This document shows, one piece after another, positions 34,544-51,680 of a DNA stretch of 64,000 nucleotides. The stretch's first letter is position 1. Each line of letters opens with the position of its first letter. The translations under genes and the position numbers were made by a program. This DNA is from Streptomyces sp. NBC_01231. GTDB lineage: Bacteria > Actinomycetota > Actinomycetes > Streptomycetales > Streptomycetaceae. The DNA lies in NCBI GenBank assembly GCA_035999765.1, contig CP108521.1, positions 3,720,001 to 3,784,000 on the forward strand, in the 5' to 3' direction. A model generated the notes under the pieces. That model was given only the letters and a program-made list of their open reading frames with translations. It was not told the DNA's origin and ran no database searches.

Positions 34544-34545
34544 TC

Positions 34546-35511: not shown

Positions 35512-35512
35512 C

Positions 35513-36406
35513 ATGACCCAAGTACTGGACCGTCCCGTGGAGTTGAAGGTTCCCGCCTCGCCCGCCGCGCGCACGGCCCGCCGCAAGGCGTTCCTGGAGT
35601 GGGTCGCGGTCCACTCCCTCGGTGTCGCGGCCGCGCTCTTCTTCGCCCTGCCCTTCGTGTTCGTCTTCCTGACGTCCCTGATGAGCGACTCGCAGGCACT
35701 CAGCCGGGACCTGATCCCGCACACCTGGGAATGGGCGAACTACCGCAAGGTCTTCGACACCCCCGGCTTCCTCACCTGGTGGAAGAACACGCTGATCTAC
35801 GCCGGACTGGGCACGCTCCTGACCGTCGTCTCCTCGGTTCCCGTGGCGTACGCGCTGGCCAAGTTCCGCTTCCGGGGCCGCAATCTGACGCTGATGCTGG
35901 TGATCTCGATGATGATGCTGCCTCCGCAGGTGGTCGTCATCCCGATGTACCTGTTCTGGGCGAAGCAGCTGGACCTGTCCGGCACCCTGTGGCCGATGAT
36001 CATCCCGCTGGCGTTCGGTGACGCGTTCTCGATCTTCCTGCTCCGCCAGTTCCTCATGACCATCCCCAACGAGTACGTGGACGCGGCCAAGGTGGACGGC
36101 TGCGGTGACCTGCGGACCCTGCTGAGGGTCATCCTGCCGATGGCGAAGCCCGGCATCGCCGCCATCGCCCTCTTCCAGTTCTTCAACGCCTGGAACGACT
36201 ACTTCGGCCCGCAGATCTACGCCTCGGAGAACCCGGGCGCCTGGACCCTCTCCTACGGCCTGGAGTCGTTCAAGGGCGCCCACCACACCGACTGGAACCT
36301 CACCATGGCCGCGACCGTGCTGGTCCTGGCTCCTGTGCTCCTCGTGTTCTTCTTCGCCCAGAAGGCGTTCGTCGAAGGCGTCACTCTCACCGGCGTAAAG
36401 GGTTGA
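35513..36406 (+). CDS. csnG: sugar ABC transporter permease
   Basis: A 297-residue MalG-type permease with six helices; the EAA-type loop reads DAAKVDGCGDLRTLLRVILP. ATG 35513 is one base after the csnF stop; an in-frame GTG at 35504 would overlap csnF. It completes the CsnEFG importer. Confidence 0.92.
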   Translation: MTQVLDRPVELKVPASPAARTARRKAFLEWVAVHSLGVAAALFFALPFVFVFLTSLMSDSQALSRDLIPHTWEWANYRKVFDTPGFLTWWKNTLIYAGLGTLLTVVSSVPVAYALAKFRFRGRNLTLMLVISMMMLPPQVVVIPMYLFWAKQLDLSGTLWPMIIPLAFGDAFSIFLLRQFLMTIPNEYVDAAKVDGCGDLRTLLRVILPMAKPGIAAIALFQFFNAWNDYFGPQIYASENPGAWTLSYGLESFKGAHHTDWNLTMAATVLVLAPVLLVFFFAQKAFVEGVTLTGVKG

Positions 36407-36426
36407 TCCACACATGCTGCGTCTAC

Positions 36427-36452
36427 CCGGGGGCCAACCCCCGGACCCCCGG
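36427..36452 (+). repeat. intra-operon hairpin repeat
   Basis: CCGGGGG-CCAA-CCCCCGG (36427-36444) followed by ACCCCCGG, a form of GC-rich palindrome that recurs in Streptomyces intergenic DNA. It lies between csnG and csnH and could attenuate transcription or stabilise the upstream transporter mRNA. Confidence 0.6.
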
Positions 36453-36499
36453 CCGATGAAGAGCTACGCCACCGGCGCCTGGAAGCGAGGGAACTCTCA

Positions 36500-37765
36500 G
36501 TGAAACTCACCGTGGTCGGCGGAGGATCGACCTACACCCCCGAACTCATCGACGGTTTCGCGCGGTTGCGGGACACCCTGCCGATAGAGGAACTGGTCCT
36601 GGTCGACCCGGCAGCCGAACGCCTTGAGCTGGTCGGCGGACTGGCGCGGCGCATCTTCGCCAAGCAGGGGCACCCCGGGCGGATCGTCACGACCGACGAC
36701 CTGGACAAGGGCGTCGAGGGCGCCGACGCCGTCCTGCTCCAACTGCGTGTCGGGGGCCAGGCAGCGCGTCAGCAGGACGAGACCTGGCCGCTGGAGTGCG
36801 GCTGCGTCGGCCAGGAGACGACCGGTGCGGGCGGCCTCGCCAAGGCACTGCGCACGGTCCCGGTGGTCCTGGACATCGCCGAACGCGTCCGCCGCACCAA
36901 CCCGAACGCCTGGATCATCGACTTCACCAACCCGGTCGGCATCGTCACCCGGGCCCTGCTCCAGGCGGGCCACAAGGCGGTCGGCCTGTGCAACGTGGCG
37001 ATCGGCTTCCAGCGGAAGTTCGCGGGCATGCTCGGTGTGGCGCCCGCCGACGTCCACCTCGACCACGTGGGCCTCAACCACCTCACCTGGGAGACGGGCG
37101 TGCGCCTCGGCGGCCCCGAGGGCAAGGACGTCCTGCCCGAACTCCTCACCGCCCACGGCACGGACATCGCCGGGGACCTGCACCTCCCGCGGCCCCTCCT
37201 GGACCGTCTGGGCGTGGTCCCGTCGTACTACCTGCGCTACTACTACGCGCACGACGAGGTGGTGCGGGAGCTGCGCACCAAGCCGTCCCGTGCGGCGGAA
37301 GTGGCCGCCATGGAACGGGAGTTGCTGGACCTGTACGCGGACCCGGCGCTCGACGAGAAGCCGGAGCTGCTGGCCCGGCGCGGCGGCGCCTTCTACTCGG
37401 AGGCGGCCGTGGACCTGACCGCTTCCCTGCTCGGCAAGGGCGGCAGCCCCTACCAGGTGGTGAACGCGTACAACCGGGGCACTCTGCCCTTCCTGCCGGA
37501 CGACGCGGTGATCGAGGTACAGGCGGCCGTGGGCCCCAAGGGTCCGACCCCGCTGTTCGTGCCGTCCGTGGACCCCCTGTACGCCGGTCTGATGGCCAGC
37601 GTGACGACGTACGAGGACCTGGCTCTGCGAGCCGCCCTGCACGGCGGTCGCGACCGGGTCTTCCGGGCCCTCCTCGCCCACCCGCTCGTCGGCCAGTACG
37701 CGTACGCCGAATCCCTCACCGACCAGCTGATCGCACACAACCGGGAGCACCTCGCGTGGGCCTGA
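36500..37765 (+). CDS. csnH: GH4-family 6-phospho-glycosidase
   Basis: A 421-residue NAD- and metal-dependent glycosidase. The NAD-binding motif VVGGGSTYTPELI opens the protein; VGLCNVAIGFQRK carries the metal-binding Cys and LNHLTWETG the His; ADAVLLQLRVGGQAARQQDE is a family block. In the csn operon it should cleave phosphorylated chitosan-derived disaccharides inside the cell. The exact substrate (6-phospho-glucosaminide) is inferred from its neighbours. Confidence 0.9.
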   Translation: MKLTVVGGGSTYTPELIDGFARLRDTLPIEELVLVDPAAERLELVGGLARRIFAKQGHPGRIVTTDDLDKGVEGADAVLLQLRVGGQAARQQDETWPLECGCVGQETTGAGGLAKALRTVPVVLDIAERVRRTNPNAWIIDFTNPVGIVTRALLQAGHKAVGLCNVAIGFQRKFAGMLGVAPADVHLDHVGLNHLTWETGVRLGGPEGKDVLPELLTAHGTDIAGDLHLPRPLLDRLGVVPSYYLRYYYAHDEVVRELRTKPSRAAEVAAMERELLDLYADPALDEKPELLARRGGAFYSEAAVDLTASLLGKGGSPYQVVNAYNRGTLPFLPDDAVIEVQAAVGPKGPTPLFVPSVDPLYAGLMASVTTYEDLALRAALHGGRDRVFRALLAHPLVGQYAYAESLTDQLIAHNREHLAWA

Positions 37766-38745
37766 CCGCAAGTGTCCTCGCCGTCGACGCGGGCAACAGC
37801 AAGACCGACGTCGCGGTCGTGGCGGCCGACGGAACCGTCCTCGCCACGGCCCGCGGCGGCGGGTTCCGGCCGCCGGCGGTGGGCGTGGAGACGGCGGTGG
37901 ACAAGGTCGCGGACGCGGTGAAGCGGGCGTTCGCCGCGGCGGGCGTCGAGTCGGCCGACCATGTCTCCGCCTGCCTCGCCAACGCCGACTTCCCCGTGGA
38001 GGAGGAGCAGCTGCGGGCCGCGCTGCACGCGCGCGCGTGGGGGGCACGTACGGAGGTCCGCAACGACACGTTCGCGGTGCTGCGGGCGGGCGTCACCGAG
38101 CCGCGCGGGGTCGCCGTCGTCTGCGGCGCGGGCATCAACTGCGTCGGCATGCGTCCCGACGGCCGCACCGCCCGCTTCCCCGCACTCGGCCGGGTCTCCG
38201 GCGACTGGGGCGGCGGCTGGGGCCTGGCGGAGGAGGCCCTGTGGCACGCCTCCCGCGCGGAGGACGGCCGCGGCGGTCCCACGACGCTGGCGCGGACCCT
38301 CCCCGCCCACTTCGGTCTCCCCTCCATGTACGCGCTCGTCGAGGCCCTGCACCTGGAGCACGTCAAGCCCGCCAGACAGCACGAGTTGACGCCCGTGCTG
38401 TTCGCCACCGCGGTCGACGGTGACCCGGTCGCCCGGTCCATCGTCGACCGGCTGGCCGAGGAGGTCGTCACCATGGCCACGGTGGCGCTGGCACGGCTCG
38501 ATCTGCTGGAGGAGGAGACACCGGTGCTGCTGGGCGGGGGTGTCCTGGCCGCGCGGCATCCCCAGCTCGACGACGGCGTACGGGACCTGCTGGCGGCCCG
38601 GGCCCCGAAGGCGGTCCCGCGCGTGGTGACCGCGCCCCCGGTGCTGGGGGCGGCCCTGCTGGGACTGGACCGTGCGGAAGCACCGGAGGAGACCCACGAG
38701 CGACTGCGGGCGCACTTCGCACACTCCGGCCCGTCCGGCGTTTGA
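37756..38745 (+). CDS. csnK: BadF/BcrA-type glucosamine kinase
   Basis: A 329-residue ASKHA-fold kinase related to eukaryotic N-acetylglucosamine kinase: LAVDAGNSKTDVAVVAADG (phosphate 1), VVCGAGINCVG, GDWGGGWGLAEEAL and the adenosine region VLLGGGVLA. GTG 37756 overlaps csnH by 10 bp. Likely phosphorylates glucosamine or its oligomers after uptake. The final residues GPSGV and stop are encoded by a dispersed Streptomyces repeat, so the C-terminus may differ between strains. Confidence 0.88.
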   Translation: MGLTASVLAVDAGNSKTDVAVVAADGTVLATARGGGFRPPAVGVETAVDKVADAVKRAFAAAGVESADHVSACLANADFPVEEEQLRAALHARAWGARTEVRNDTFAVLRAGVTEPRGVAVVCGAGINCVGMRPDGRTARFPALGRVSGDWGGGWGLAEEALWHASRAEDGRGGPTTLARTLPAHFGLPSMYALVEALHLEHVKPARQHELTPVLFATAVDGDPVARSIVDRLAEEVVTMATVALARLDLLEEETPVLLGGGVLAARHPQLDDGVRDLLAARAPKAVPRVVTAPPVLGAALLGLDRAEAPEETHERLRAHFAHSGPSGV

Positions 38746-39013: not shown

Positions 39014-40495
39014 GTGACACACCCGCCGAAGAGCAGCGCGGCGCCACCACCGGCACCGGGCGTGCCCACGATCCCGGCGGTGCCACCGCAGCCGACGCCG
39101 CCGGGTGGCCCGGCCCAGTACACCCGGCCCGGCCCGCCGGGCGGCCCCGGCCTGCCGCTTCCCCCCGCACCTCTGCAGGCACGGCGTACCGCGTTCGCCG
39201 AGGGAGCCGACCGCCTGCGCGCCGCCGCCACCACCGAACCGGGCCGGCTGCGCATCATCGGCGCCCTCCTCGCGCTCCTCGTCGTGGCCTTCGGCTCCGT
39301 CACCGCCTGGCAGACGGCCGAACGGTCGGCGGCCGCCGACGACGTCCTCAACAACAGCCAGCCGCTCAGTTCCTCCGCGGCCGACATCTACCGCTCGCTC
39401 GCCGACGCCAACACCGCCGCCTCCAGCGGCTTCCTGGCCGGCGGCCAGGAGACGGCGGCCTCCCGCGAGCGGTACGAGAAGGACATAGACAACGCCGCCG
39501 AGGGCCTCGTCGAGGCCGCCACCAACTCCGACCCCAAGTCCCCCGCGGCGGCGACCGTGGCCGATCTGAACCGGCTGCTGCCCGAGTACAAGGGCCTGGT
39601 GGAGCGCGCCCGGACGTACAACCGGCAGGGCTTCCCGGTCGGCGGCGCGTATCTGCGGTACGCCAACGAGAAGATGCAGAAGGAGATGCTCCCGAAGGCG
39701 GAGGATCTCTACACCAAGGAGAACCAGCGGCTGCGCGCCGACTACGAGGACGCCACGCCCTACCCGTGGGCGGCGATCGGCCTCGGCGTCCTCGCGCTCG
39801 CCGGTCTCGCCTGGGCCCAGCACCGCAACTACCGGCGCACGAACCGGGTGTTGAACCACGGCCTGGTCGCCGCCACGGCCACCGCCACCGTGGTGCTGCT
39901 CTGGCTGGTCGTCGGCCACAGCGTCGCGCGCGCCGACCTCAACGCCTCCTACGACGACGGCGTCCGCTCGCTGAACGTGCTGCACGACGCCCGGATCGCC
40001 TCCCTCAAGGCCCGCGGCAACGAGAACCTGACGCTGGTGGCCCGCGGCGCCGAGACCAAGAAGGTGGGCGACGAGAGCGTCGACGCCTACGACTACGACT
40101 TCAAGAGCAACATGGCCACCCTCGGCAAGGGCCTCGCCGAGGCGGAGAAGCTCGCCGACGACGCGACCGGCGAGCAGCCGGTCACTCAGGCCGTCGGCAA
40201 CATGCAGGAGTGGAAGAAGCGCCACGGCGCGGCCCGCGCGGACGACGAGAACGGCAACTACGCGGGCGCGCTGGCCAGGGTGATCGGCCCCAAGGGAGCG
40301 ACCGGCGAGTGCTTCGACAGCGTCGACGCCAATCTCGCCAAGGCGATCGACCACGAGACGACCCAGTTCGAGCAGACAGCAGGTGACGGTCTGAGCGCGA
40401 TGACCGGGCTGTCGGTGGGCGCCGCCGTCCTCGCGGTCCTGGGTGCCGCCGGCGCGGTGCTGGGCATCGGGCGCAGACTTTCGGAGTACCGGTGA
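39014..40495 (+). CDS. GlnX-like membrane sensor protein
   Basis: A 493-residue membrane protein without a kinase domain. A Pro-rich cytoplasmic N-terminus (about 70 residues) precedes transmembrane helix 1 (IIGALLALLVVAFGSVTAW); then come a four-helix extracellular sensor (about residues 110-255), helix 2 and helix 3 around AAIGLGVLALAGLAWAQ and ATATVVLLWLVVGHSV, a second helical extracellular domain, and a last helix near the C-terminus. This double four-helix arrangement next to a binding protein and PknG matches GlnX of mycobacteria. GTG 39014 has GGGAGG seven bases upstream. It probably transmits ligand state of the neighbouring binding protein to the kinase. Confidence 0.75.
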   Translation: MTHPPKSSAAPPPAPGVPTIPAVPPQPTPPGGPAQYTRPGPPGGPGLPLPPAPLQARRTAFAEGADRLRAAATTEPGRLRIIGALLALLVVAFGSVTAWQTAERSAAADDVLNNSQPLSSSAADIYRSLADANTAASSGFLAGGQETAASRERYEKDIDNAAEGLVEAATNSDPKSPAAATVADLNRLLPEYKGLVERARTYNRQGFPVGGAYLRYANEKMQKEMLPKAEDLYTKENQRLRADYEDATPYPWAAIGLGVLALAGLAWAQHRNYRRTNRVLNHGLVAATATATVVLLWLVVGHSVARADLNASYDDGVRSLNVLHDARIASLKARGNENLTLVARGAETKKVGDESVDAYDYDFKSNMATLGKGLAEAEKLADDATGEQPVTQAVGNMQEWKKRHGAARADDENGNYAGALARVIGPKGATGECFDSVDANLAKAIDHETTQFEQTAGDGLSAMTGLSVGAAVLAVLGAAGAVLGIGRRLSEYR

Positions 40496-40509
40496 AAGGG
40501 GGCGTGACG

Positions 40510-41568
40510 ATGCAAGGACGACGACTGCGGGCCCGCCTGAAGGGCTGGGGCGGTGTGGGGGCGATGGCTGTCGTGTGCGCCGTCGCGCTGGCCTTCGCGC
40601 TGCTGCTGCCGCTGGCCCAGCCGCGTGACGGCGGCACCGGCACCGGTGGATCGGGCCTCGCCCGGGTCACGCAGGCGAGCGCCGAAGAGGGCTGCACCAC
40701 ACCGGCGATGCGGAACGCGCCGGAGAAGCAGACCCTGTCCCCCTCGGGCGCCGACGGCAAGACCATCGAGGCGATCAAAAGCCGTACGGGTGAGAAGCGC
40801 AAGCTGATCGTCGGTGTCGACCAGAACAGCTACCGCTGGGGCTACCGCGACCCCAACAGCGCCGGCACCGGCGACCTGGAGGGCTTCGACATCGACCTGG
40901 TCCACCGGATCGCCAAGGACATCCTCGGCGACGAGAACGACGTCCAGTTCAAGGCCATCCCCACCGACCAGCGCATCCCCGCCATCCAGGACGGCCGTGT
41001 CGACATGGTCGTCCGCACGATGACCATCAACTGCGCCCGCCTGTCGGATGTCGCCTTCTCCGCCCCCTACTTCGAGACCGGCCAGCAGGTACTCGCCCCC
41101 AAGTCCTCGTCGATCACGGGGTACGACGACTCGCTCGCGAAGAAGAAGATCTGCACCGCGACCGGCTCCACCGCCAACACCAAGCTGACCGACGACCAGA
41201 AGGCGGGCAAGCTCGTCTCCTCGGCGGACCTGAGGACCACCGTCCCCAACCAACTCGACTGTCTCGTCAGGCTGCAGCTCGGTGAGGTCGACGCGGTGGT
41301 CACCGACGGGGCGCTCGCCGCGAGCCAGGCCGCGCAGGACCCCACGGTCGAGCTGAAGGGGGACCCGTTCACCGTCGAGTACTACGGCGTGGCGATGAAG
41401 AAGGACGCCGACGACCTGGTACGCCGGGTCAACCAGATACTGGTGGACTACCGCCAGGACAAGACGAACGGCTGGCAGGCGTCGTACGACAGGTGGCTGT
41501 CGGCGACACTGGAGAAGGACTCCTCGACCTCGGAGCCACCGACACCGCAGTACCTGCGCACGAGCTGA
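40510..41568 (+). CDS. GlnH-like amino-acid binding protein
   Basis: A 352-residue family 3 solute-binding protein specific for polar amino acids (probably Glu, Asp or Gln). After a signal-anchor helix (VVCAVALAFALLLPLA) come the ligand motifs LIVGVDQNSYRWGY, LEGFDIDLVHRIAKDIL, VVRTMTINCARLSDVAFSAP and VTDGALAASQ. There is no lipobox cysteine, so it may stay membrane-anchored by its N-terminus. ATG 40510 follows AAAGGGGG; the GTG at 40492 overlaps the sensor stop. No ABC permease is linked, so it serves sensing, as with GlnH of the mycobacterial PknG operon. Confidence 0.85.
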   Translation: MQGRRLRARLKGWGGVGAMAVVCAVALAFALLLPLAQPRDGGTGTGGSGLARVTQASAEEGCTTPAMRNAPEKQTLSPSGADGKTIEAIKSRTGEKRKLIVGVDQNSYRWGYRDPNSAGTGDLEGFDIDLVHRIAKDILGDENDVQFKAIPTDQRIPAIQDGRVDMVVRTMTINCARLSDVAFSAPYFETGQQVLAPKSSSITGYDDSLAKKKICTATGSTANTKLTDDQKAGKLVSSADLRTTVPNQLDCLVRLQLGEVDAVVTDGALAASQAAQDPTVELKGDPFTVEYYGVAMKKDADDLVRRVNQILVDYRQDKTNGWQASYDRWLSATLEKDSSTSEPPTPQYLRTS

Positions 41569-41639
41569 CGGTCATCACCATCTCACTCCCACGGACACTC
41601 TGAACCACTGACGGAACACAACGCAGCGAGAGGTGATCG

Positions 41640-42974
41640 ATGGGCGTCACGGACCCCGCCGGGCCGGTGATGGACCGGGACGAGGTGGACCGTGCGCTGG
41701 CGCGGCTCGGCGCGGAGCACGAGGCGATCGAGACCTCGCTCCTCGCCCTGCAGGACCACGCGGGCCGCAGACTCCTGGAGGGCGCCGACCTCACCGGTGT
41801 CACCAAGGAGCGCTGGACGGGCGCGGAGGCGTCGATCACGCTGCTGTGGGCGTACTTCGACGCGTACACGGACGCGTTGCGGGCCGGCCGCGAGATCCGG
41901 TCCCGGCGCCGCTGGTCCAGCCGCGAGGACCTGGTCGAGCTGACCGAACTACTGCGCGGCGAGGCCGTCACGGTCGCGGGTTCGGCCACCGCGACCGCCA
42001 ACGCGCCCACGCTGCACGGCGGTCCGGGCAAGCTCAGCGAGCGTTTCTCGCTGGTCACGCTCGTGGACCGGATGAACGAGCTGTACGCGACCTCGCTCGA
42101 CATGGTGGTCGCCGCGGACGCGGTGTGGTCGGCGCTGCCCGCCCGGATCGACCTGTTGGCCGCGGAACTCCAGCGCACCCGTCGGCTCGCGCACTCGGTC
42201 GGCGTGCGCCCGGGCGAGCACCCGGCCGGCGACGACCTGGAGCGGATCACCCGCACACTGACCCGACTGCGCGAGCAGGTGATCTCCGACCCGCTGGCGT
42301 TCTGGGTGCCGGCGCCGGGCAGTTCGGCCCCGGGCGGCGGCAAACCGGACACCACGGTCTACGACCGGGAGGCCCGCGCCCTGGAGGACGTGCGCCGGGA
42401 GATCGACGCCGTGCTCACGGTCCGGCAGGACGCCGAGGCCCGGCTGGTGAAGCTGCGGGACGTGCTCTCCCGCGCGGACCGCACCCTCGCCGAGGCGCGT
42501 ACCGCGCGCGGAGAGGTCCTGGCGAAGATCGCGGCCACCGAGGTGCCGGTGGTCAGCGGCCCGCCGACCGCGCTGCACGAGCAGCTGTCGACGGCCGCCG
42601 AGTACCGCAGACACGCCCAGTGGCACCGCCTGTCCCCGCTCCTGGACTCCCTGGAGCGGAAGGCGGAGGACGAACTGCTGCGCGCCCGTGAGTCGTTGAC
42701 CGCGGTCACCCAGCCCCTGGCGGTCCGCGCGGAACTGCGCGGCCGCCTCGACGCGTACAAGGCGAAGGTCGCCCGGCACGGCTTCGCGGAGGACCCGTTC
42801 CTGGTGGAGCGGTACGACGCGGCGCGCCGCATGCTGTGGAGCGCGCCCTGCGACCTGCGCGTCGCAGAACAGGCCGTCCTGCGCTACCAGCGGGCGGCCG
42901 TGGAACTGCTCGGCGCCCCGCGGGCGCCCGGTCAGGACGGAACCGAGGACCGAAGGGGGGAGTCGTCGTCATGA
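41640..42974 (+). CDS. uncharacterised helical protein of the kinase cluster
   Basis: A 444-residue soluble protein, mostly alpha-helical, with probable coiled coils at residues 240-330 (DVRREIDAVLTVRQDAEARL and following) and 340-410. No enzymatic motif or membrane helix is visible. The ATG has GAGAGGTGA just upstream, and its stop overlaps the pknG start (ATGA), so it is made together with the kinase. I do not recognise a characterised family. Position suggests an adaptor between membrane sensor and kinase. Confidence 0.75.
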   Translation: MGVTDPAGPVMDRDEVDRALARLGAEHEAIETSLLALQDHAGRRLLEGADLTGVTKERWTGAEASITLLWAYFDAYTDALRAGREIRSRRRWSSREDLVELTELLRGEAVTVAGSATATANAPTLHGGPGKLSERFSLVTLVDRMNELYATSLDMVVAADAVWSALPARIDLLAAELQRTRRLAHSVGVRPGEHPAGDDLERITRTLTRLREQVISDPLAFWVPAPGSSAPGGGKPDTTVYDREARALEDVRREIDAVLTVRQDAEARLVKLRDVLSRADRTLAEARTARGEVLAKIAATEVPVVSGPPTALHEQLSTAAEYRRHAQWHRLSPLLDSLERKAEDELLRARESLTAVTQPLAVRAELRGRLDAYKAKVARHGFAEDPFLVERYDAARRMLWSAPCDLRVAEQAVLRYQRAAVELLGAPRAPGQDGTEDRRGESSS

Positions 42975-45565
42975 GTCAGGCAGAGCAGGGCCGGGCGCAG
43001 CAGAGCCAGCAGGAGCCGAGTCAGGCGGAGCAGAGCCAGGCACCACGGACCTGTCAGCGGCCCGACTGCGGCGGGTCGTACGAGGACGTGGGCGGTGGCG
43101 AGCTGTACTGCGACACCTGCGGTCTCGCCCCCGTCGTGTCGGCGACCGGCATGGTCGGCTCGCCGCCCACCGGGATCACCGCGGGCGGCCGGGGCTCCCG
43201 GGGTTCGTCGGGCAGCAGTTCCCGCTCCAGCAGCCGCAGTTCGCGTACCTCCTCCCACTCGTCGAAGTCCCGGCGCTCGGTGTCGGGACGGCTGTCGCGG
43301 TCCGTGTCGGGCAAGTCCACGGGCCGCTCGGTGTCGGTGCGCAGCTCCGGCGCGAGCTCCGGCTCGTCCAGTCGCGGGCGGCTCGGCGCGGGCCTGGTGG
43401 ACGTGCCGGGTGTGCCGCGGCCCGACCCGCGCGCGATGGTGCTGGACAACCCCGAGGTGCCCGAGCGCAAGCGGTTCTGCTCACGCTCGGACTGCGGGGC
43501 TCCGGTGGGGCGGGCCCGCGGTGACCGGCCGGGGCGCACCGAGGGGTTCTGCACCAAGTGCGGCCACCCGTACTCGTTCGTCCCGAAGTTGAAGACCGGC
43601 GACGTCGTGCACGGGCAGTACGAGGTCGTGGGCTGTCTGGCGCACGGCGGACTCGGCTGGGTCTACCTCGCCGTGGACCGGGCGGTGTCGGACCGCTGGG
43701 TGGTCCTCAAGGGCCTCCTCGACACCGGCGACCAGGACGCGATGGAGGCCGCGATCTCCGAGCGGCGCTTCCTCGCGGAGATCGAGCACGCCAACATCGT
43801 CCGGATCTACAACTTCGTCGAGCACCTCGACCAGCGCACCGGCTCGCTGGACGGGTACATCGTCATGGAGTACGTCGGCGGCAAGTCGCTCAAGGAGATC
43901 GCCAACGCCCGCCGAGGCCCGGCGGGCAAGCGGGACCCGCTGCCGGTGGAGCAGGGCTGCGCGTACGGCATCGAGGCCCTGGAGGCGCTGGGCCATCTGC
44001 ACAGCCGCAACCTGCTGTACTGCGACTTCAAGGTCGACAACGCGATCCAGACCGAGGACCAGCTCAAGCTGATCGACATGGGCGCGGTGCGCAGGATGGA
44101 CGACGACGAGTCGGCCATCTACGGCACGGTCGGCTACCAGGCGCCGGAGGTCGCGGAGGTCGGACCGTCCGTGGCGTCCGACCTGTACACCGTCGCGCGT
44201 ACGCTCGCCGTCCTCACCTTCGACTTCCAGGGCTACACGAACGTCTTCGTGGACTCCCTGCCCGACCCGGACAACATCGAGGTCTTCCGCCAGTACGAGT
44301 CGTTCTACCGCCTCCTGGTCCGGGCCACCGACCCCGACCCGGCCCGCCGGTTCGCGTCCGCCCAGGAGATGTCGGAACAGCTGACGGGCGTGCTGCGGGA
44401 GGTGGTGTCGCTGCAGACGGGCCGGGCGCGGCCCGCGCTGTCGACGCTGTTCGGGCCCGAAGTCCGCGTCACCGACACGGTGTTGTTCCCCAAGCTGGAC
44501 GGCGAGGTGTCGCGGCTGGGTGCGCGGGCGGCGCGCCCCGCACGCTCCTCCTCCGCCGGTTCCCTCCCCGCTCCTGCCGGTTCCCTCCTCCCCGCCGCTG
44601 CCGGCGTCGCTCCCGGCCTCGTCACGACGGTCGACGCCTCCGCCGCGGGCCTCGCGTTGCCCGTCCCGCACGTCGACCCGGGCGACCCGAACGCGGGCTT
44701 CCTGGCCGGGCTGATGACGTCCGCTCCGGCCGAGCTGCTCGGGGCGCTCGCCGCGGCGCCGGCCCCGTCGACGGAGACCCGGCTCAGGCAGATCCGCGCC
44801 TGGCTGGAGAACGGCGACGCGTACACCGCGCACGAGGCTCTGCTGCGGCTGGAGGGAGAGCGGCCCGACGACTGGCGGGTGGTCTGGTACCGGGGCGTTG
44901 CCGCCCTGGTGACCGGCGATCAGGAGGCGGCCGCGCTCGCCTTCGACGCGATCTACGACGCCTTCCCGGGCGAGATGGCCCCCAAGCTGGCGCTCGGCCT
45001 GTGCGCGGAGGTGCTGGGCCAGTTGGACAACGCCGCCGAGTACTACCGCCTGGTCTGGTCGACCGACCCGAGTTATGTGAGCGCCGCCTTCGGCCTGGCC
45101 CGCGTCCAGCTCGCGGCCGGGGACCGCCGAAGCGCCGTGAGAACGCTGGAGTCGGTGCCGGAGTCGTCCATCCACTACACCGCCGCTCGCGTGGCGGCCG
45201 TACGGGCGAGGCTGCGGCAACGCACCGCGGCCGCTTCCGACGTACCCTTCCTGGACGATCTGACCGCGGCCGCCGGTCAGGTCGAAGCCCTGGAGGCGTA
45301 CGGTCTGGATCCGGCCCGGCGTGAGCAGTTGTCGGCGGAAGTCCTCGGCTGCGCGCTGGACTGGATACTCTCCGGTGGCCAGGGTTCCGTCCCGCCCGGG
45401 GCCGCCGGGGGACGGATGCTGCTCGGCAGCGGCCTGGACGAGCGAGGCCTGCGTTTCGGCCTGGAACGTTCGTACCGCACGCTGGCCCGGCTGGCGTCGG
45501 GCGGCGAGGAGAGGATCGACCTGGTGGAACGTGCCAACCGTTACCGCCCCCGGACATGGGTGTAG
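42971..45565 (+). CDS. pknG: PknG-type serine/threonine protein kinase
   Basis: An 864-residue soluble kinase homologous to mycobacterial PknG along its length. Zinc ribbon 1: C28, C33, C47, C50. A Ser/Arg-rich segment spans residues about 74-137. Zinc ribbon 2: C170, C175, C194, C197, at the position of the rubredoxin region. Kinase domain from about 212: Gly loop AHGGLGWVYLAVDR, Lys247 in VVLKGL, catalytic loop YCDFKVDN (no HRD arginine, as in PknG) and DMG in place of DFG. A TPR domain (about 600-760) and C-terminal PknG region follow. In mycobacteria and corynebacteria PknG phosphorylates GarA/OdhI to control 2-oxoglutarate dehydrogenase; no such target gene is in this window. Confidence 0.93.
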   Translation: MSQAEQGRAQQSQQEPSQAEQSQAPRTCQRPDCGGSYEDVGGGELYCDTCGLAPVVSATGMVGSPPTGITAGGRGSRGSSGSSSRSSSRSSRTSSHSSKSRRSVSGRLSRSVSGKSTGRSVSVRSSGASSGSSSRGRLGAGLVDVPGVPRPDPRAMVLDNPEVPERKRFCSRSDCGAPVGRARGDRPGRTEGFCTKCGHPYSFVPKLKTGDVVHGQYEVVGCLAHGGLGWVYLAVDRAVSDRWVVLKGLLDTGDQDAMEAAISERRFLAEIEHANIVRIYNFVEHLDQRTGSLDGYIVMEYVGGKSLKEIANARRGPAGKRDPLPVEQGCAYGIEALEALGHLHSRNLLYCDFKVDNAIQTEDQLKLIDMGAVRRMDDDESAIYGTVGYQAPEVAEVGPSVASDLYTVARTLAVLTFDFQGYTNVFVDSLPDPDNIEVFRQYESFYRLLVRATDPDPARRFASAQEMSEQLTGVLREVVSLQTGRARPALSTLFGPEVRVTDTVLFPKLDGEVSRLGARAARPARSSSAGSLPAPAGSLLPAAAGVAPGLVTTVDASAAGLALPVPHVDPGDPNAGFLAGLMTSAPAELLGALAAAPAPSTETRLRQIRAWLENGDAYTAHEALLRLEGERPDDWRVVWYRGVAALVTGDQEAAALAFDAIYDAFPGEMAPKLALGLCAEVLGQLDNAAEYYRLVWSTDPSYVSAAFGLARVQLAAGDRRSAVRTLESVPESSIHYTAARVAAVRARLRQRTAAASDVPFLDDLTAAAGQVEALEAYGLDPARREQLSAEVLGCALDWILSGGQGSVPPGAAGGRMLLGSGLDERGLRFGLERSYRTLARLASGGEERIDLVERANRYRPRTWV

Positions 45566-45568
45566 TTG

Positions 45569-46933
45569 ATGTCGCAGATGCCCCAACTGTCCGCCTGCCC
45601 GAGCTGCGAGGAACCGCTCGACTCGGGTGACCGTTTCTGCGGTGCGTGCGGATACGACCTGTCCGCCGTGCCCGTACGGCCGGACGACAACCCGACCATC
45701 GCCATGAACGGCAGCGCGCCACCCCCGCCGCGCGCCGCCGAGGCGCCCTGGCCCCAAGTCCCCGACACCGGCTCCGGGGCGCCCGCCCCGGCGCACCTGC
45801 CGACGGACCTCCCGGACACCGACTCAGGCGGCGGCGCCCTGCCACCGGTGCCGGCCCAGCCGCCGCACATCGGTCCACCAGGATCCCCCGGGGCCCCGGC
45901 GCCCCCGGCGCCCCCGGCCACGGGGGTCCGCTTCGACCATCCGCCGGAGCCCGACGACTACCCGCTCCAGGCGCCGGACCCGCGGGTGACGCCGGGCGTC
46001 CCGACTCCGGCCGAGGGCACCCAGGTGTGTGTGGCCTGCCGGGCGGGCCGCGTCGACAGCGACGGCTACTGCGAGAACTGCGGGCACGCCCAGCCGCGCG
46101 AACGCGACCACATGGAGCAGGAGTTCGGCCCGGTCGCCGCCGTCAGCGACCGGGGCCGGCGCCATCACCGCAACGAGGACGCGTTCGGCCTCGGGTGCGC
46201 CACGCTGCCCGACGGCTCGCCCGCCCTGCTGTCGATCGTCTGCGACGGCGTGTCCTCCGCGACCCGCCCCGACGACGCCTCCATGGCCGCGTCCCGGGTG
46301 GCGAGCGAGGCGCTGCTGGCCGCCCTGCCGCTCGGCACGCACCCGCAGCAGGCCATGCACGACGCGATCGTCGCGGCCTCCCGCGCGGTCAACTCGCTGG
46401 CCGCCGAGCCCGCCACGGCCCGCGAGCACGCCCCGCACCAGAACGCCCCCGCCTGCACCCTGGTCGGCGCGGTGGTCACGTCCGGCCTGCTGATCGTCGG
46501 CTGGGTCGGCGACAGCCGCGCCTACTGGGTACCGGTGGACCGCAGCGCTCCCCCGGCCCGGCTCACCGAGGACGACTCGTGGGCGGCGCAGATGGTCGCC
46601 GCCGGCCTGATGAACGAGGCGGAGGCGTACGCCGACGAGCGCGCCCACGCGATCACCGGCTGGCTCGGCGCGGACGCCTACGAACTGGAGCCGCACACCG
46701 CTTCCTTCAAGCCGGACCGGCCGGGAGTGGTGGTGGTGTGCACGGACGGCCTGTGGAACTACGCGGAGGCGGCCGAGGAGATGGCCGAGGTGCTGCCGCT
46801 GGACGCCGCCGTGCGCCCCCTGCACAGCGCCCGCGTCCTGGTCGGTCACGCCCTGGACGGCGGGGGCCACGACAACGTAACAGTGGCCGTCCTGCCGTTC
46901 CCCGCACCGCCTCAGGGGGCAGGATCGGCCTGA
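45569..46933 (+). CDS. PP2C-type protein phosphatase with two zinc ribbons
   Basis: A 454-residue phosphatase that would reverse PknG phosphorylation. Zinc ribbon 1 (CPSC and CGAC, residues about 10-32), a Pro-rich linker, zinc ribbon 2 (CVAC and CENC, about 152-172), then the PP2C domain: DRGRRHHRNEDAFG, SIVCDGVSSATRP, GWVGDSRAYWV, VVCTDGLWNYAE and GGHDNVTVAV. All metal-binding Asp residues are present. Its ATG is three bases after the kinase stop; an upstream TTG at 45566 is less likely. The adjacent position is strong evidence for an opposed kinase/phosphatase pair. Confidence 0.92.
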   Translation: MSQMPQLSACPSCEEPLDSGDRFCGACGYDLSAVPVRPDDNPTIAMNGSAPPPPRAAEAPWPQVPDTGSGAPAPAHLPTDLPDTDSGGGALPPVPAQPPHIGPPGSPGAPAPPAPPATGVRFDHPPEPDDYPLQAPDPRVTPGVPTPAEGTQVCVACRAGRVDSDGYCENCGHAQPRERDHMEQEFGPVAAVSDRGRRHHRNEDAFGLGCATLPDGSPALLSIVCDGVSSATRPDDASMAASRVASEALLAALPLGTHPQQAMHDAIVAASRAVNSLAAEPATAREHAPHQNAPACTLVGAVVTSGLLIVGWVGDSRAYWVPVDRSAPPARLTEDDSWAAQMVAAGLMNEAEAYADERAHAITGWLGADAYELEPHTASFKPDRPGVVVVCTDGLWNYAEAAEEMAEVLPLDAAVRPLHSARVLVGHALDGGGHDNVTVAVLPFPAPPQGAGSA

Positions 46934-47044
46934 GGCCGCGTACGCCTCGCGCAGCAACGGGGAAGCCTCGACGGACCGGAGGGGACCGGTCCGTCCACAG
47001 TCATCGCCCCGCCCCGGCGGGGTTCGAGGGGGATTCGATCAGGC

Positions 47045-48391
47045 ATGGCCAATTTCTCGAAGTCGAACGCGCCACAGTTCTCGGTGGACGTGTACCAGAA
47101 CGAGTTCCTGCCGGAGGGCGGCCGCGAGGTCAACGCGATCGTCACGGTGACGTCCACCGGCGGTGGCACGGTCGGAAGCGCGGTCGGGGCGCCCCACCTC
47201 TACGCGCCCGGCCAGGGCCCGTCCGCCGCGGTGGCGATCATGGTGGACTGTTCGGGCTCGATGGACTACCCGTCGGCCAAGATGCGCAACGCCCGCGACG
47301 CCACGGGCGCCGCGATCGACACCCTGCGCGACGGCGTGCACTTCGCGGTGATCGGCGGCACGCACGTCGCCAAGGAGGTCTACCCGGGCAACGGCCGCCT
47401 CGCCGTGGCCGACGCGACCACCCGCGACCAGGCGAAACAGGCCCTGCGCAAGCTCAGCGCGGGCGGCGGCACCGCCATCGGCACCTGGCTGCGTCTCGCC
47501 GACCGGCTGCTGTCCTCCGCGGACGTCGCCATCCGCCACGGCATCCTGCTCACCGACGGCCGCAACGAACACGAGTCACCCGAGGACCTGAAGGCCTCCC
47601 TGGACGCCTGCGCCGGCCGCTTCACCTGTGACGCCCGCGGGGTGGGCACCGACTGGGAAGTGAAAGAAGTCACAGGGATCGCCTCCGCACTGCTCGGCAC
47701 CGCCGACATCGTCGCCGACCCGGCCGCGCTCGCCGCCGACTTCACGCAGATGATGGAGACGGCCATGGGCAAGGAGGTCGCGGACGTCGCCCTGCGGCTG
47801 TGGACCCCGGTCGGCACCACGGTGAAGTTCGTCAAACAGGTCGCGCCGACCGTCGAGGAGCTCACCGACCGGCGCACGGAGGCCGGCCCGCGCGCCGGGG
47901 ACTATCCCACCGGCTCCTGGGGCGACGAGTCCCGTGACTACCACGTCTGCGTCGAGGTCCCGGTCGCCCATATCGGCCAGGAGATGCTCGCCGCCCGGGT
48001 CTCCCTGGTGGTCCCGCAGCCCGACGGCACGGTCCAGAACCTCGGCGCCCAGGGTCTGGTACGGGCCGTGTGGACCGACGACATGGTCGCCTCGACGTCG
48101 ATCAACCCCCAGGTCGCCCACTACACCGGCCAGGCGGAACTGGCACAAGCCATCCAACAGGGGCTGGACCTTCGCAAAGCGGGAGATATGGATGGAGCAA
48201 CGGCCAAACTGGGCCGGGCCGTTCAGCTCGCGAGTGACTCCGGGAACGCGGATACTGCGAAACTGCTTGCGAAGGTGGTGGACGTGGTCGACGCCGCGAC
48301 AGGTACTGTGCGACTGAAGACGAAGGTCGCGGACGCCGACGAGATGACTCTCGAAACACGGTCCACAAAGACTGTTCGTGTAAAGAAGTGA
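47045..48391 (+). CDS. TerY-like VWA-domain protein
   Basis: A 448-residue protein. The N-terminal beta region (FSVDVYQNEFLPEGG) precedes a von Willebrand A domain with an intact metal site: VDCSGSMDYPSAK (DxSxS), AGGGTAIGTWL (Thr) and LLTDGRNEHES (Asp). A C-terminal beta-sandwich and a helical tail (residues about 350-420) follow. It has no signal peptide. VWA proteins next to a PP2C and a kinase form the TerY-P triad of Ter-type stress systems; that resemblance is the basis for the name. No other ter genes are in the window. Confidence 0.85.
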   Translation: MANFSKSNAPQFSVDVYQNEFLPEGGREVNAIVTVTSTGGGTVGSAVGAPHLYAPGQGPSAAVAIMVDCSGSMDYPSAKMRNARDATGAAIDTLRDGVHFAVIGGTHVAKEVYPGNGRLAVADATTRDQAKQALRKLSAGGGTAIGTWLRLADRLLSSADVAIRHGILLTDGRNEHESPEDLKASLDACAGRFTCDARGVGTDWEVKEVTGIASALLGTADIVADPAALAADFTQMMETAMGKEVADVALRLWTPVGTTVKFVKQVAPTVEELTDRRTEAGPRAGDYPTGSWGDESRDYHVCVEVPVAHIGQEMLAARVSLVVPQPDGTVQNLGAQGLVRAVWTDDMVASTSINPQVAHYTGQAELAQAIQQGLDLRKAGDMDGATAKLGRAVQLASDSGNADTAKLLAKVVDVVDAATGTVRLKTKVADADEMTLETRSTKTVRVKK

Positions 48392-48493
48392 CGTAGCACG
48401 ACCATGTGAAGCACGGAAAAGCAGCGAGCCTGACCCCTTGGGGTTGGAGAAATCCGGTCGTCGCGACCGGACAGGAGAGGGGGAAGCGCCGAC

Positions 48494-50041
48494 ATGCCGA
48501 CCTGCCCGAACGGACACCAGTCGGGTTCCGACGACTGGTGCGAGGTCTGCGGTCACCGCATGGCCGGTGCCGCACCCCCTCCGCCGCCCCCAGGTGGGGG
48601 GTACGGCTTCCCGCCGCCCCAGGCCACCCAGCCCGGTCCCGGCGGACGCCCGCCGCACCTGTCCGGCGGACCGGACCCCGAGCCGGAGCTCTGCCCGCAG
48701 TGCCGTACGCCCCGTGAGGGCGGAGCGCCGTTCTGCGAGGAGTGCCGGTGGAACTTCCTGACCAACACGGCGACCTCGTACACCCCGGCCGCCCCGCCCC
48801 AGCCCGCGCCCGGCCCCAACGCGGCCGGCCGCTTCCAGCAGCAGCCGGGCCAGCCGTCGTTCGGCGGCGGTGACGGGTACGACTACCAGAGCTCGCGCCC
48901 CTCGCAGGTGAACCGGCCCGCCGAGCCGATCCCGCCGGGCCCGCCGTTCGGCAACCAGCCGGGGCAGGGCGGCCCGGGTGGGCCCGGTGGCCCTTCCGGT
49001 CCTGGCGGTCCGGGCGGGTTCGGTGGCCCTGGCGGTCCTTCGGGTCCTGGTGGTCCCGGTGGTCCTTCGGGTCCTGGCGGTCCGGGCGGGTTCGGTGGCC
49101 CTGGCGGTCCTTCGGGTCCTGGTGGTCCCGGCGGTCCCGGTGGCTACGGCGGTCCTGGCGGCCAAGGTGGCTACGGTGGCCCGTCCGGTCCTAACGGACC
49201 CGGCGGTCAGGGTGGCTTCGGCGGTCCCGGCGGCCCGGGTCCCGGCGGCCCCGGTCAAGGTGGCCCCGGCGGTCCCGGTCCCTTCGGCGCCGACCCGTCG
49301 CGGCCTGTTCCGCCGCCGCCCGGGCCGACCCCTTACGGCGACCTCGGCGGACCTGGTGGTCCCGGCGGTCCCGGTAACGGACCCCAGGCGCCCCAGGCCT
49401 TCCAGCAGCCCGGCCCGGGCCCGTCGGCCCCGCCCGGATATCCGCAGGAGAACCGGCCGCAGCAGGGCGGCCCGTCCTTCGGTGGCGGCAACGACGACTG
49501 GGTGATCTCCCCGCCGTCGGGCGGTCCCGGTGGCCCGGGCGGGCCCGGCCCCGGTCAGGGCCCCGGCGGCGGCTACGGATACCCGCAGCCCGGTTCTCCG
49601 CAGGCCCCGCCCGGCCCCGGCTACCAGCAGCAGCCGACGACGTGGACGGCGACCATCGGCCCGGACCGCGAGTACTTCATGGCGATGATGCATCGTTCCG
49701 GCCCCGAGGCCGCGGGCCTCAACCTGCCCGCGTTCTCGCCCGAGCAGCAGCGCACCCTGTCCGGCAACCAGGTCACCATCGGCCGCCGCCGTCACTCCAC
49801 CGGCGACACCCCCGACATCGACCTGTCGGTGCCGCCGGAGGACCCGGGCGTCTCGCACCAGCACGCGGTCCTGGTCCAGCAACCGGACGGAACCTGGGCT
49901 GTCGTCGACCAGAACTCGACGAACGGGACGACGGTGAACGGCTCGGAGGAGCCGATCCAGCCGTTCGTGCCGGTACCGCTGCAGGACGGGGACCAGGTGC
50001 ACGTGGGCGCCTGGACGACGATCACCGTCCGGCGCGGCTGA
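48494..50041 (+). CDS. FHA-domain protein with zinc ribbons and collagen-like linker
   Basis: A 515-residue cytoplasmic protein. Zinc-binding elements at the N-terminus (CPNGH with CEVC, residues 4-19; CPQC and CEEC, about 67-85), a very long Gly/Pro linker (about 150-400) with collagen-like repeats, and a C-terminal FHA domain (about 420-510: [29 protein letters not shown]). The phospho-threonine-binding Arg, Ser and His are present. It probably docks phosphorylated PknG, the VWA protein or other targets. It is last in the cluster and may replace the FHA protein GarA of mycobacteria. Confidence 0.88.
48964..49290 (+). repeat. minisatellite encoding collagen-like GPG repeats
   Basis: Tandem ggtcctggcggtccc-type units encode [21 protein letters not shown] and GGYGGPGGQ blocks. 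The 15-residue block [15 protein letters not shown] occurs twice nearly unchanged. Slippage here would alter linker length in frame, because the units are multiples of three. Confidence 0.85.
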
Positions 50042-50077: not shown

Positions 50078-51139
50078 TCACGCGAGGGGCCAGGCGTACG
50101 GCCCTTCCGGGTCGTCCAGCCACGCCCACTCGCGCTCGCCGCTGACCGTGATGCCGTACCGCTCGCGCTGCGGCCTGCCCTCCCGCTCCCACAGCGCGTA
50201 CGCCTCCTGCGGAGCGAGGCTGCCACGGGTCAGGGTGAGCAGGAACCGGAACAGTTCGTGGTCCCTGGCCTGGCGCGGCACCCCACCCAGCGGGGCCGGC
50301 TCCGGCTCGGGCGCACCGCCACGCAGCGGCACGAAGTAGGCGGGCGTGTGCAGGAACCGCCCCTCGGCCTGACCCGCCTGACCTGCATGACCCGCCTCAC
50401 CTGCATCCCTCGTCTCACCTGCCTGATTCGCGTGCCGCATGAGCCCCGTTTGCCCCGGCTCGTGGACCGTCAGGGCGATCAGGCCCGTGCCGAGGGGGGT
50501 CAGGATCCGGGCGCCGGGGCGGCACTGGGCGAGCCAGGCGAGCGGGATCGACGGCAGGGCGCAGGTGGCGATGACCCGGTCGAAGGGGGCGCGCTCGGGC
50601 ACCCCGCGCGCTCCGTCGCCGGTGACGACGACGGGGTGGTACCCCGCGGTGGCCAGATGCCGCCGGGCCGCCTCGGTGATCTCCGGTTCCAGGTCGACGG
50701 TGGTGACGAGGTCGTCGTCGCCGAGCCGGTGCGCGAGCAGGGCCGCGTTGTACCCCGTGCCCGCGCCGATCTCCAGGACCCGGTCGCCGGCCGCCACCCG
50801 CAACTCGGTCAGCATCATCGCCATCAGCGACGGCTGGCTGCTGGAGGAGACCAGTTCGCCGTCCCGCATCCGGGTGGCCAGCGGGACGTCGGCGTACACC
50901 CCGCGCACCCAGCGTTCGCGCGTGCCCGGGTCGGGGCTCTCACCCCACCGGCGTTCGCACCCACCCCTGACGCCGACGTAGTAGTACGGCACGAAGAGAT
51001 GCCGCGGGACCGCCTCGAACGCCTCCCGCCACGCCGGGTCGGCGGCCCAGGCCCCGCTCGCGTCGATCTCCCGCACCAGCGCCGTCCGCGCCGAGGCGGC
51101 GAGGTCGTCCAGATCCTTGTGGAGAACATGCGTGCCCAT
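50078..51139 (-). CDS. PCMT-like protein L-isoaspartate methyltransferase
   Basis: A 353-residue SAM-dependent methyltransferase. Motif I is VLEIGAGTGYNAALLA, preceded by SSSSQPSLMAMMLTEL, the substrate-binding region of L-isoaspartyl methyltransferases; post-motif I is VTTVDLEPEI. The C-terminus resembles actinobacterial PCMT-like enzymes rather than E. coli Pcm, so the substrate may be a peptide or an internal protein. A repeat-coded insertion (GEAGHAGQAGQAEG) interrupts the middle. ATG 51139 is chosen from domain extent; in-frame sequence upstream looks non-coding. Confidence 0.85.
   Translation of the reverse strand: MGTHVLHKDLDDLAASARTALVREIDASGAWAADPAWREAFEAVPRHLFVPYYYVGVRGGCERRWGESPDPGTRERWVRGVYADVPLATRMRDGELVSSSSQPSLMAMMLTELRVAAGDRVLEIGAGTGYNAALLAHRLGDDDLVTTVDLEPEITEAARRHLATAGYHPVVVTGDGARGVPERAPFDRVIATCALPSIPLAWLAQCRPGARILTPLGTGLIALTVHEPGQTGLMRHANQAGETRDAGEAGHAGQAGQAEGRFLHTPAYFVPLRGGAPEPEPAPLGGVPRQARDHELFRFLLTLTRGSLAPQEAYALWEREGRPQRERYGITVSGEREWAWLDDPEGPYAWPLA
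50370..50434. repeat. degenerate tandem repeat in methyltransferase gene
   Basis: Four imperfect copies of a unit like cctgacctgcatgacccg. They encode the Ala/Gly/Gln/Glu-rich loop of the methyltransferase and look like recent in-frame expansion. Confidence 0.7.
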
Positions 51140-51266
51140 ACGTCCACTGTCCTGCGGGAGCCGTTGAGAAGCGAGCCGCGCCACCCTCGGGCTCCGGCCC
51201 GCCCATGGCTCGGCCCGACCGACCGTGGTCCTAGGCCTTGAGTCCTGGGCCCCCCGGTCTGAGAGC

Positions 51267-51680
51267 ATGGAGGGCGTGAAAGAGATCCGGCGCGGCACGC
51301 TTCAGACGCAGACCTTCTACGAGCAGGTCGGCGGGGAGGAGACCTTCCGCCGCCTCGTCCACCGTTTCTACGAGGGAGTCGCCGAGGACCCACTGCTGCG
51401 GCCCATGTATCCCGAGGAGGACCTGGGCCCGGCCGAGGAGCGCCTCACGCTCTTCCTGATCCAGTACTGGGGCGGCCCGACCACGTACAGCGACAACCGC
51501 GGCCATCCGCGCCTGCGGATGCGGCACGTCCCCTTCGCCGTGAACCGCGAGGCACACGACGCCTGGCTGAAGCACATGCGGGACGCCGTCGACTCTCTCG
51601 GACTGTCCGAGGAGCACGAGCACACGCTGTGGAACTACCTGGAGTACGCGGCCGCCTCGATGGTGAACACACCGGACTAG
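51267..51680 (+). CDS. group II truncated haemoglobin
   Basis: A 137-residue 2/2 globin (trHbO-like) that binds O2 or handles reactive nitrogen or oxygen species in the cytoplasm. Conserved features: TFYEQVGGEETFRRLV (A/B helices), HRFYEGVAEDP with Tyr B10, FLIQYWGGPTTYSD with the E/CD region, MRHVPFAV with the proximal His, and AWLKHM with Trp G8 typical of group II. ATG 51267 is used; GTG 51276 is possible. Confidence 0.92.
   Translation: MEGVKEIRRGTLQTQTFYEQVGGEETFRRLVHRFYEGVAEDPLLRPMYPEEDLGPAEERLTLFLIQYWGGPTTYSDNRGHPRLRMRHVPFAVNREAHDAWLKHMRDAVDSLGLSEEHEHTLWNYLEYAAASMVNTPD

Follow-up and report, generated by a model that had tools for sequence, protein, structure and literature searches.

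An extended and modular PknG locus in Streptomyces with a HelX-PP2C-FHA half that can persist after loss of the kinase

The seven genes of the locus

We analysed a window of 64,000 nucleotides from Streptomyces sp. NBC_01231 (contig CP108521.1, positions 3,720,001 to 3,784,000 of the forward strand), in which seven co-directional plus-strand open reading frames (ORFs) fill positions 39014-50041. In order they encode GlnX, GlnH, a helical protein that we call HelX, the kinase PknG, a PP2C-type phosphatase, a von Willebrand factor type A (VWA) protein and a forkhead-associated (FHA) protein. With the assigned starts, GlnX/GlnH and HelX/PknG overlap by 4 bp and PknG and PP2C are 3 bp apart; the remaining gaps are 71 bp (GlnH-HelX), 111 bp (PP2C-VWA) and 102 bp (VWA-FHA). 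No terminator-like site was found inside the locus when the plus strand was searched. The genes are as follows.

39014..40495, plus strand: GlnX-family membrane signal transducer, 493 aa, GTG start (NCBIfam NF058618)
40492..41568, plus strand: GlnH-like extracellular amino-acid-binding protein, 358 aa, slightly downstream start possible (Pfam SBP_bac_3, 92.1 bits)
41640..42974, plus strand: HelX, conserved helical protein of unknown function, 444 aa (AlphaFold2 model)
42971..45565, plus strand: PknG-type Ser/Thr kinase, 864 aa, with extra N-terminal zinc-ribbon motif, Ser/Arg-rich segment, rubredoxin, kinase and TPR parts
45569..46933, plus strand: PP2C-type phosphatase, 454 aa, with two zinc-ribbon motifs N-terminal of the catalytic domain; TTG at 45566 is an alternative start
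47045..48391, plus strand: VWA protein, 448 aa, with DxSxS motif and C-terminal VWA_3_C (Pfam)
48494..50041, plus strand: FHA protein, 515 aa, with N-terminal zinc-ribbon motifs, Gly/Pro-rich linker and C-terminal FHA domain (Pfam)

GlnX matched NF058618 with 509.7 bits (cut-off 250) over residues 73-493, whereas it stayed below the narrower equivalog NF041460 (173.3 against a cut-off of 780). The best match of GlnH in the PDB was the GlnH structure 6h1u (E 3.4e-41). For the binding pocket we took the residue list from the available text of PMC6069109 and checked the numbering. In the alignment to 6h1u the residues R147, T162, R169 and D250 are retained, S164 is replaced by Thr and W232 by Gln. 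An acidic amino acid is a plausible, not a certain, ligand for this pocket.

HelX had no match in Pfam, NCBIfam or PADLOC. None of the best 120 of its 2713 relatives carried a Pfam domain, and the named ones were mostly called 'hypothetical' or 'coiled-coil'. The AlphaFold2 model of HelX is mostly helical, with a mean predicted local distance difference test (pLDDT) of 92 and a predicted template modelling score (pTM) of 0.75, and comparison with solved structures gave no convincing relative. Because of its fold class and its position directly before PknG, HelX may act as a scaffold.

The kinase was recognised by Pfam as PknG_TPR (295.8 bits), PknG_rubred (105.1 bits) and Pkinase (88.4 bits), in a scan that began at an upstream start, and it aligned with PDB 2pzi across the kinase and TPR parts (E 1.7e-165). 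Based on Pfam and this alignment it has the order rubredoxin-kinase-TPR with the catalytic residues in place. Pattern searches placed zinc-ribbon motifs at residues 28 and 170, of which the latter belongs to the rubredoxin. The phosphatase scored 52.7 bits as PP2C_2, had one zinc ribbon recognised by Pfam and two found by pattern at residues 10 and 154, and reached 98.8 bits with the Stp1-type PP2C model, under its cut-off of 230 bits.

The VWA protein matched VWA_3 (39.8 bits) and VWA_3_C (78.8 bits). PDB 4fx5 is a solved structure of this family (profile E 5.5e-180) and is labelled only as von Willebrand factor type A. In the FHA protein the FHA domain (60.5 bits) lies at residues 427-505; a zinc-ribbon motif was found by pattern at residue 67 and a second, with Cys and His, by eye at residues 4-19. 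Fifteen of the 16 FHA ORFs from other families also have the ribbon motif by pattern. The linker at window positions 48950-49640 is collagen-like and Gly/Pro-rich in the Streptomyces protein, and much shorter in several other families. The translations also contain the aspartate motifs of the PP2C, the DxSxS motif of the VWA protein and the R, S and NGT residues of the FHA domain.

Conservation of the gene set in Streptomyces and other families

PknG_TPR was detected at E 1e-3 in 57 of the 60 genomes of the order, in 101 of the 296 of the class and in 36 of the 296 genomes of the phylum draw, with 20 of these last above the cut-off. For the own group we used the best 80 of at least 586 named PknG loci, nearly all from Streptomyces; they were selected via PknG, hence the counts speak for the neighbours only. 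All seven genes were present in identical order in 67 of the 80, which goes beyond a chance arrangement. Among the other 13, 12 were interrupted by a contig end and one (L152) had no VWA gene.

The sample from outside the family held 81 loci and covered every PknG place of the class draw that scored above the cut-off outside family f5; added to it were eight f5 loci from a longer list, four f3 places from the order draw and one place from the phylum draw. Loci with at least 5.5 kb upstream and at least 6.5 kb downstream of the PknG match were counted as well flanked (56/81), and the other 25 were excluded. GlnX, GlnH, PP2C, VWA and FHA adjoined PknG in 35 of these 56 loci, and HelX was recognised by profile in 28 of the 35. 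This linked set was seen in seven families (f3, f9, f43, f80, f86, f87 and f106), one of which, f43, belongs to another class. The order GlnX-GlnH-HelX-PknG-PP2C-VWA-FHA occurred in 18 of the 35 loci and the same order minus a recognised HelX in four. Nine had the order HelX-PknG-PP2C-VWA-FHA-GlnX-GlnH, with three more lacking HelX. The set stayed linked where GlnX-GlnH had moved to the far end (f86) or was inverted (one f43 locus).

The other 21 loci comprised 11 with GlnX and GlnH only, two partnerless ones (f5) and eight with mixed subsets. Six of the 11 were from f87 and had a convergent GlnH-GlnX pair, not the classic operon. One f5 genome (G586) held one full set (L215) together with two classic trios (L214, L258); L215 was excluded from the 56-locus count as its flank was too short.

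The preliminary description, made from the DNA alone, had listed seven co-directional genes with short gaps or overlaps at this place, and on this ORFs, Pfam and NCBIfam agree. It had also taken the genes to belong together and had set a neighbourhood survey as a test beforehand. The genes are not scattered in most relatives, as the 35 linked outside-family loci show, and they stay together across families and through two rearrangements.

The window genes on either side recur next to the cluster within the own family and, apart from one f86 match, nowhere else, so the cross-family conservation stops at GlnX and FHA. Directly upstream (33197-38745) lie genes for a sugar ABC transporter (binding protein and two permeases), a GH4 glycosidase and a BadF-type ATPase domain, which recur beside own-family clusters and elsewhere as one ORF in one f86 locus. 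Directly downstream, on the opposite strand (50078-51298), is a gene for a PCMT-like methyltransferase, whose recurrence next to the cluster is limited to the own family.

Further PknG-type kinases were also seen. The own genome has a second, divergent PknG_TPR kinase (L065, G000:C1:7717620-7718621) without cluster partners, near which there is only a 40-bit binding-protein match. In f87 (L187, L193, L231, L234, L240 and others) a paralogous PknG faces a convergent GlnH-GlnX pair, frequently in a genome where the main cluster is present too; HelX, VWA and FHA additionally accompany this paralog in L195 and L229.

Separation of the two halves

Among 199 genomes of the same genus HelX was found in 196 (E 1e-20), PknG_TPR in 187 (186 above cut-off) and VWA in 185 (E 1e-40). 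The last two counts take in fragments (G022 for both; G676 for PknG) and a few probable divergent second PknG copies, so that intact clusters are fewer than 187 or 185. Several of the absences are assembly breaks, with PknG cut by a contig end in G599 and G776.

Four Streptomyces genomes had a broken input half. In G022 GlnX, GlnH, PknG and VWA are all in pieces at the locus. None of the four was found at the locus in G040 and G044, where G040 keeps one 20-bit PknG trace, and genome-wide searches of both gave no PknG_TPR (E 1e-3) and no VWA (E 1e-20). In G676 GlnH is truncated, PknG and VWA are reduced to their final portions, and GlnX was not found at the locus. All four genomes have uninterrupted frames of nearly full length for HelX, PP2C and FHA. 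As these are genes 3, 5 and 7 of the cluster, a single deletion cannot explain the erosion.

A quick HelX tree with 91 rows, in which many forks are weak, gave four separate erosions by parsimony. When compared with the other labelled rows alone it gave three, two of them forced by well-supported branches. G040 groups with G639, a genome in which only VWA is lost, as if VWA had been the first gene to go in this lineage. The ratio of nonsynonymous to synonymous differences (pN/pS) in the eroded genomes was well below 1 for HelX (0.21-0.39), PP2C (0.25-0.51) and FHA (0.31-0.57); the comparator for G040 was G639, itself without VWA. Four intact control pairs gave 0.23-0.32 for HelX and 0.07-0.51 for FHA.

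The other half is also found by itself. GlnX-GlnH-PknG without the remaining genes occurs at loci of f5, f110 and G527. The last, an f86 genome, retains PknG-GlnX-GlnH in the f86 order, and no HelX (E 1e-8) or VWA (E 1e-20) was found in it genome-wide. VWA accompanies PknG in mini-loci with the order PknG-VWA-GlnX (L071, L185, L189, L203), which have no GlnH, PP2C or FHA. Two of these mini-loci have a partial HelX match, and their GlnX-type transducer has no adjoining binding protein.

We also built an unrooted PknG tree of 54 chosen rows. The starting set had excluded loci with a PknG match shorter than 550 aa or containing a stop; 31 of its 79 rows were removed by hand, mostly f87 and f86 near-copies and also the long-branched L065, L071, L185 and L188, and six rows were added. 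The f5 three-gene kinases, two of whose six rows are partnerless in their stretch, form one group (100/100), which adjoins the seven-gene kinase of f5 (100/98). The reduced G527 kinase nests among the seven-gene kinases of f86 (100/99). A single origin of the f5 three-gene and f110 kinases was not rejected (approximately unbiased test, p = 0.12). In this unrooted tree the f5 three-gene form is likely to be a derived, stripped state. Judging from ETTSVFRADF in its GarA and very high PknG_TPR scores, f5 appears to be the mycobacterial family.

Taken together, the locus looks modular: an amino-acid-sensing kinase input appears to be coupled to a separable HelX-PP2C-FHA unit, so that the known GlnX-GlnH-PknG pathway would make up half of a larger device.

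GarA, a possible mechanism and rival explanations

GlnX-GlnH-PknG signalling is established in mycobacteria and Corynebacterium glutamicum, and the operon is described as conserved in actinobacteria, Streptomyces included (available text of PMC6069109 and, for the signalling, PMC9769921). The corynebacterial pathway and the TPR scaffold are treated in the accessible parts of PMC9769921 and PMC8546545. The preliminary description had called the role of the cluster in Streptomyces uncharacterised. The conservation of the three-gene part is in print, and of the seven-gene set we found no description in the open-licence literature searched, a search whose scope was the articles without their supplements. 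The Streptomyces locus shares with the GlnH-GlnX-PknG-GarA/OdhI system of mycobacteria and C. glutamicum the GlnX family, a GlnH-like protein, a PknG of rubredoxin-kinase-TPR type and the ETTS of GarA. It differs in the additional HelX, PP2C, VWA and FHA genes, in the extra N-terminal zinc-ribbon motif of PknG and in the exchange of the pocket Trp of GlnH for Gln. It is an extended, modular variant of the PknG locus, and its HelX-PP2C-FHA half can outlive the kinase.

Of the eight FHA matches in the own genome one is GarA, with SETTSTISI before a GarA-type FHA domain (L057/L259). GarA was present in 283 of the 296 class genomes (E 1e-20), as against 101 with PknG_TPR. ETTS is retained in the GarA of G040 and G022, where intact PknG is lost. 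The first Thr of ETTS, which we take to be the PknG site, is Gln in all four f87 GarA rows (L293-L296; EQTS in three, DQTS in one), and these genomes do hold the PknG cluster. A zinc ribbon precedes the FHA domain in 41 of the 45 GarA genes scored, the exceptions being three genes of f5 and one of f110. Four genomes without a PknG match have it too, hence the ribbon is a general feature of GarA. The extra N-terminal ribbon motif of PknG was scored in 89 PknG rows with an LGAGLV-type anchor. It was present in 60/60 named loci, 4/4 of f1, 2/2 of f3 and 1/1 of f43, and was rarer elsewhere (1/3 in f86, 3/13 in f87, 0/5 in f5 and 0/1 in f110). The zinc ribbons may serve to dock partners.

We read the seven genes as a two-part phospho-signalling locus, with an amino-acid-sensing PknG input and a HelX-PP2C-FHA output, and give this reading a probability of about 0.5. 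Gene content, linkage, conserved catalytic and binding motifs, the separability of the halves and the open output frames beside a broken input can be seen in the sequences. The contacts between the proteins, the direction of signalling, the targets and what the ribbons do are our inference, as follows. An extracellular acidic amino acid would bind GlnH, GlnX would relay the signal across the membrane, and the TPR domain would mediate the activation of PknG, to which the VWA protein would be linked as an adaptor. Phospho-threonine marks would be bound and erased by a unit made up of HelX as a helical scaffold, the zinc-ribbon PP2C and the zinc-ribbon FHA reader. PknG would supply both GarA and this unit. 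The unit may also work with other kinases, which we propose as the reason that it survives the loss of PknG.

Several observations weigh against this reading. The Gln in place of the pocket Trp makes the ligand of GlnH uncertain, and HelX was not recognised in seven of the 35 linked outside-family loci. According to the available part of PMC9769921, the GlnH-GlnX and GlnX-PknG contacts themselves are undemonstrated in C. glutamicum. PknG does not depend on VWA, which by itself is broken in G682, G726 and G639 and absent in L152, all of which keep PknG. HelX of G022 (0.39) and G044 (0.38) and FHA of G040 (0.57) have pN/pS values above the controls, and pN/pS is low for the gene fragments of G676 as well (0.26-0.53); it is therefore the open frames and not pN/pS that carry the argument for retention. 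Finally, either half persists without the other, which fits two neighbouring systems equally well.

Such a pair of independent, co-travelling systems is the rival that we take most seriously, while holding it to be improbable on balance. Here GlnX-GlnH-PknG would act on GarA as in mycobacteria, HelX-PP2C-FHA would serve another kinase, and the linkage would mean co-expression only. HelX-PP2C-FHA alone in G022, G040, G044 and G676, GlnX-GlnH-PknG alone in f5, f110 and G527, and the GarA with ETTS in the own genome all agree with it. The interleaving of HelX, PP2C, VWA and FHA with PknG, the overlap of HelX with PknG, and a linkage that holds in seven further families and across two rearrangements speak against it. 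The preliminary description had seen a single pathway in the cluster; the genes are indeed linked, whereas the halves can be separated, as the four eroded Streptomyces and the lone GlnX-GlnH-PknG elsewhere demonstrate. Its proposal of targets other than the usual GarA found no support, the own genome having one GarA with ETTS. A closed GarA switch, with PP2C as the dedicated GarA/PknG phosphatase, FHA competing with GarA for phosphorylated PknG and no further targets, would fit this GarA, which has a zinc ribbon like PknG, PP2C and FHA. It would also fit the phosphorylation-dependent recruitment of an FHA substrate by PknG that is reported in the accessible text of PMC8546545. We consider it unlikely, as GarA carries the ribbon even in genomes that gave no PknG match and has a much wider distribution than PknG, f87 GarA is without the first Thr of ETTS despite the cluster, and both PP2C and FHA are retained in the absence of PknG.

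A TerY-P stress or defence triad, or the phospho-switch of type VI secretion, with a PknG-like kinase was the least probable reading by far. Kinase, PP2C, VWA and FHA domains do stand side by side, and the likeness to TerY-P claimed in the preliminary description holds at the domain level (VWA, PP2C and kinase neighbours, with zinc ribbons within the set), whereas the layout of the kinase does not fit. TerY-P kinases end in a C-terminal zinc ribbon, or in an OB-fold in TerY-P-like modules, according to the available part of PMC11090510. Here the kinase ends in PknG_TPR, the ribbons are N-terminal on kinase (residues 28 and 170), PP2C and FHA, and the VWA protein carries VWA_3_C; we rejected the identity as a TerY-P triad on the TPR end and ribbon positions of the kinase. 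The PpkA/PppA/Fha switch shares the combination of kinase, PP2C and FHA. PpkA itself contains a VWA domain (PMC1262709, text available in part), whereas VWA is a separate protein in the Streptomyces locus, and the FHA protein is far under the TagH cut-off (TIGR03354, 36.4 bits vs 120.25). A scan of 11 flanking ORFs, which include overlapping frames, gave no Ter or type VI secretion domain. In PADLOC the kinase matched 27 families, nearly all of the 25 shown within the kinase domain, and PP2C gave one weak match. PknG_TPR in 187 of 199 same-genus genomes is also unlike a defence island.

Going further than the two-part reading, HelX-PP2C-FHA might be a conserved core machine for phospho-readout in Streptomyces and its actinobacterial relatives, fed by two or more kinases, into which GlnX-GlnH-PknG(-VWA) is plugged as the amino-acid input. 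The three-gene operon of mycobacteria would then be a remnant after loss of the machine, and the ribbons on kinase, phosphatase, reader and GarA would be a docking code. This wider picture is tentative and we regard it as possible rather than probable.

Known from an operon of three genes, PknG is a much-studied bacterial Ser/Thr kinase. Several actinobacterial families have it together with its own phosphatase, phospho-reader, putative VWA adaptor and a new helical protein. The locus yields candidates for a phosphatase that would reverse PknG marks and for roles of PknG beyond GarA, and these can be tested in antibiotic producers that are easy to handle. The natural erosion series offers a ready-made genetic separation of the parts.

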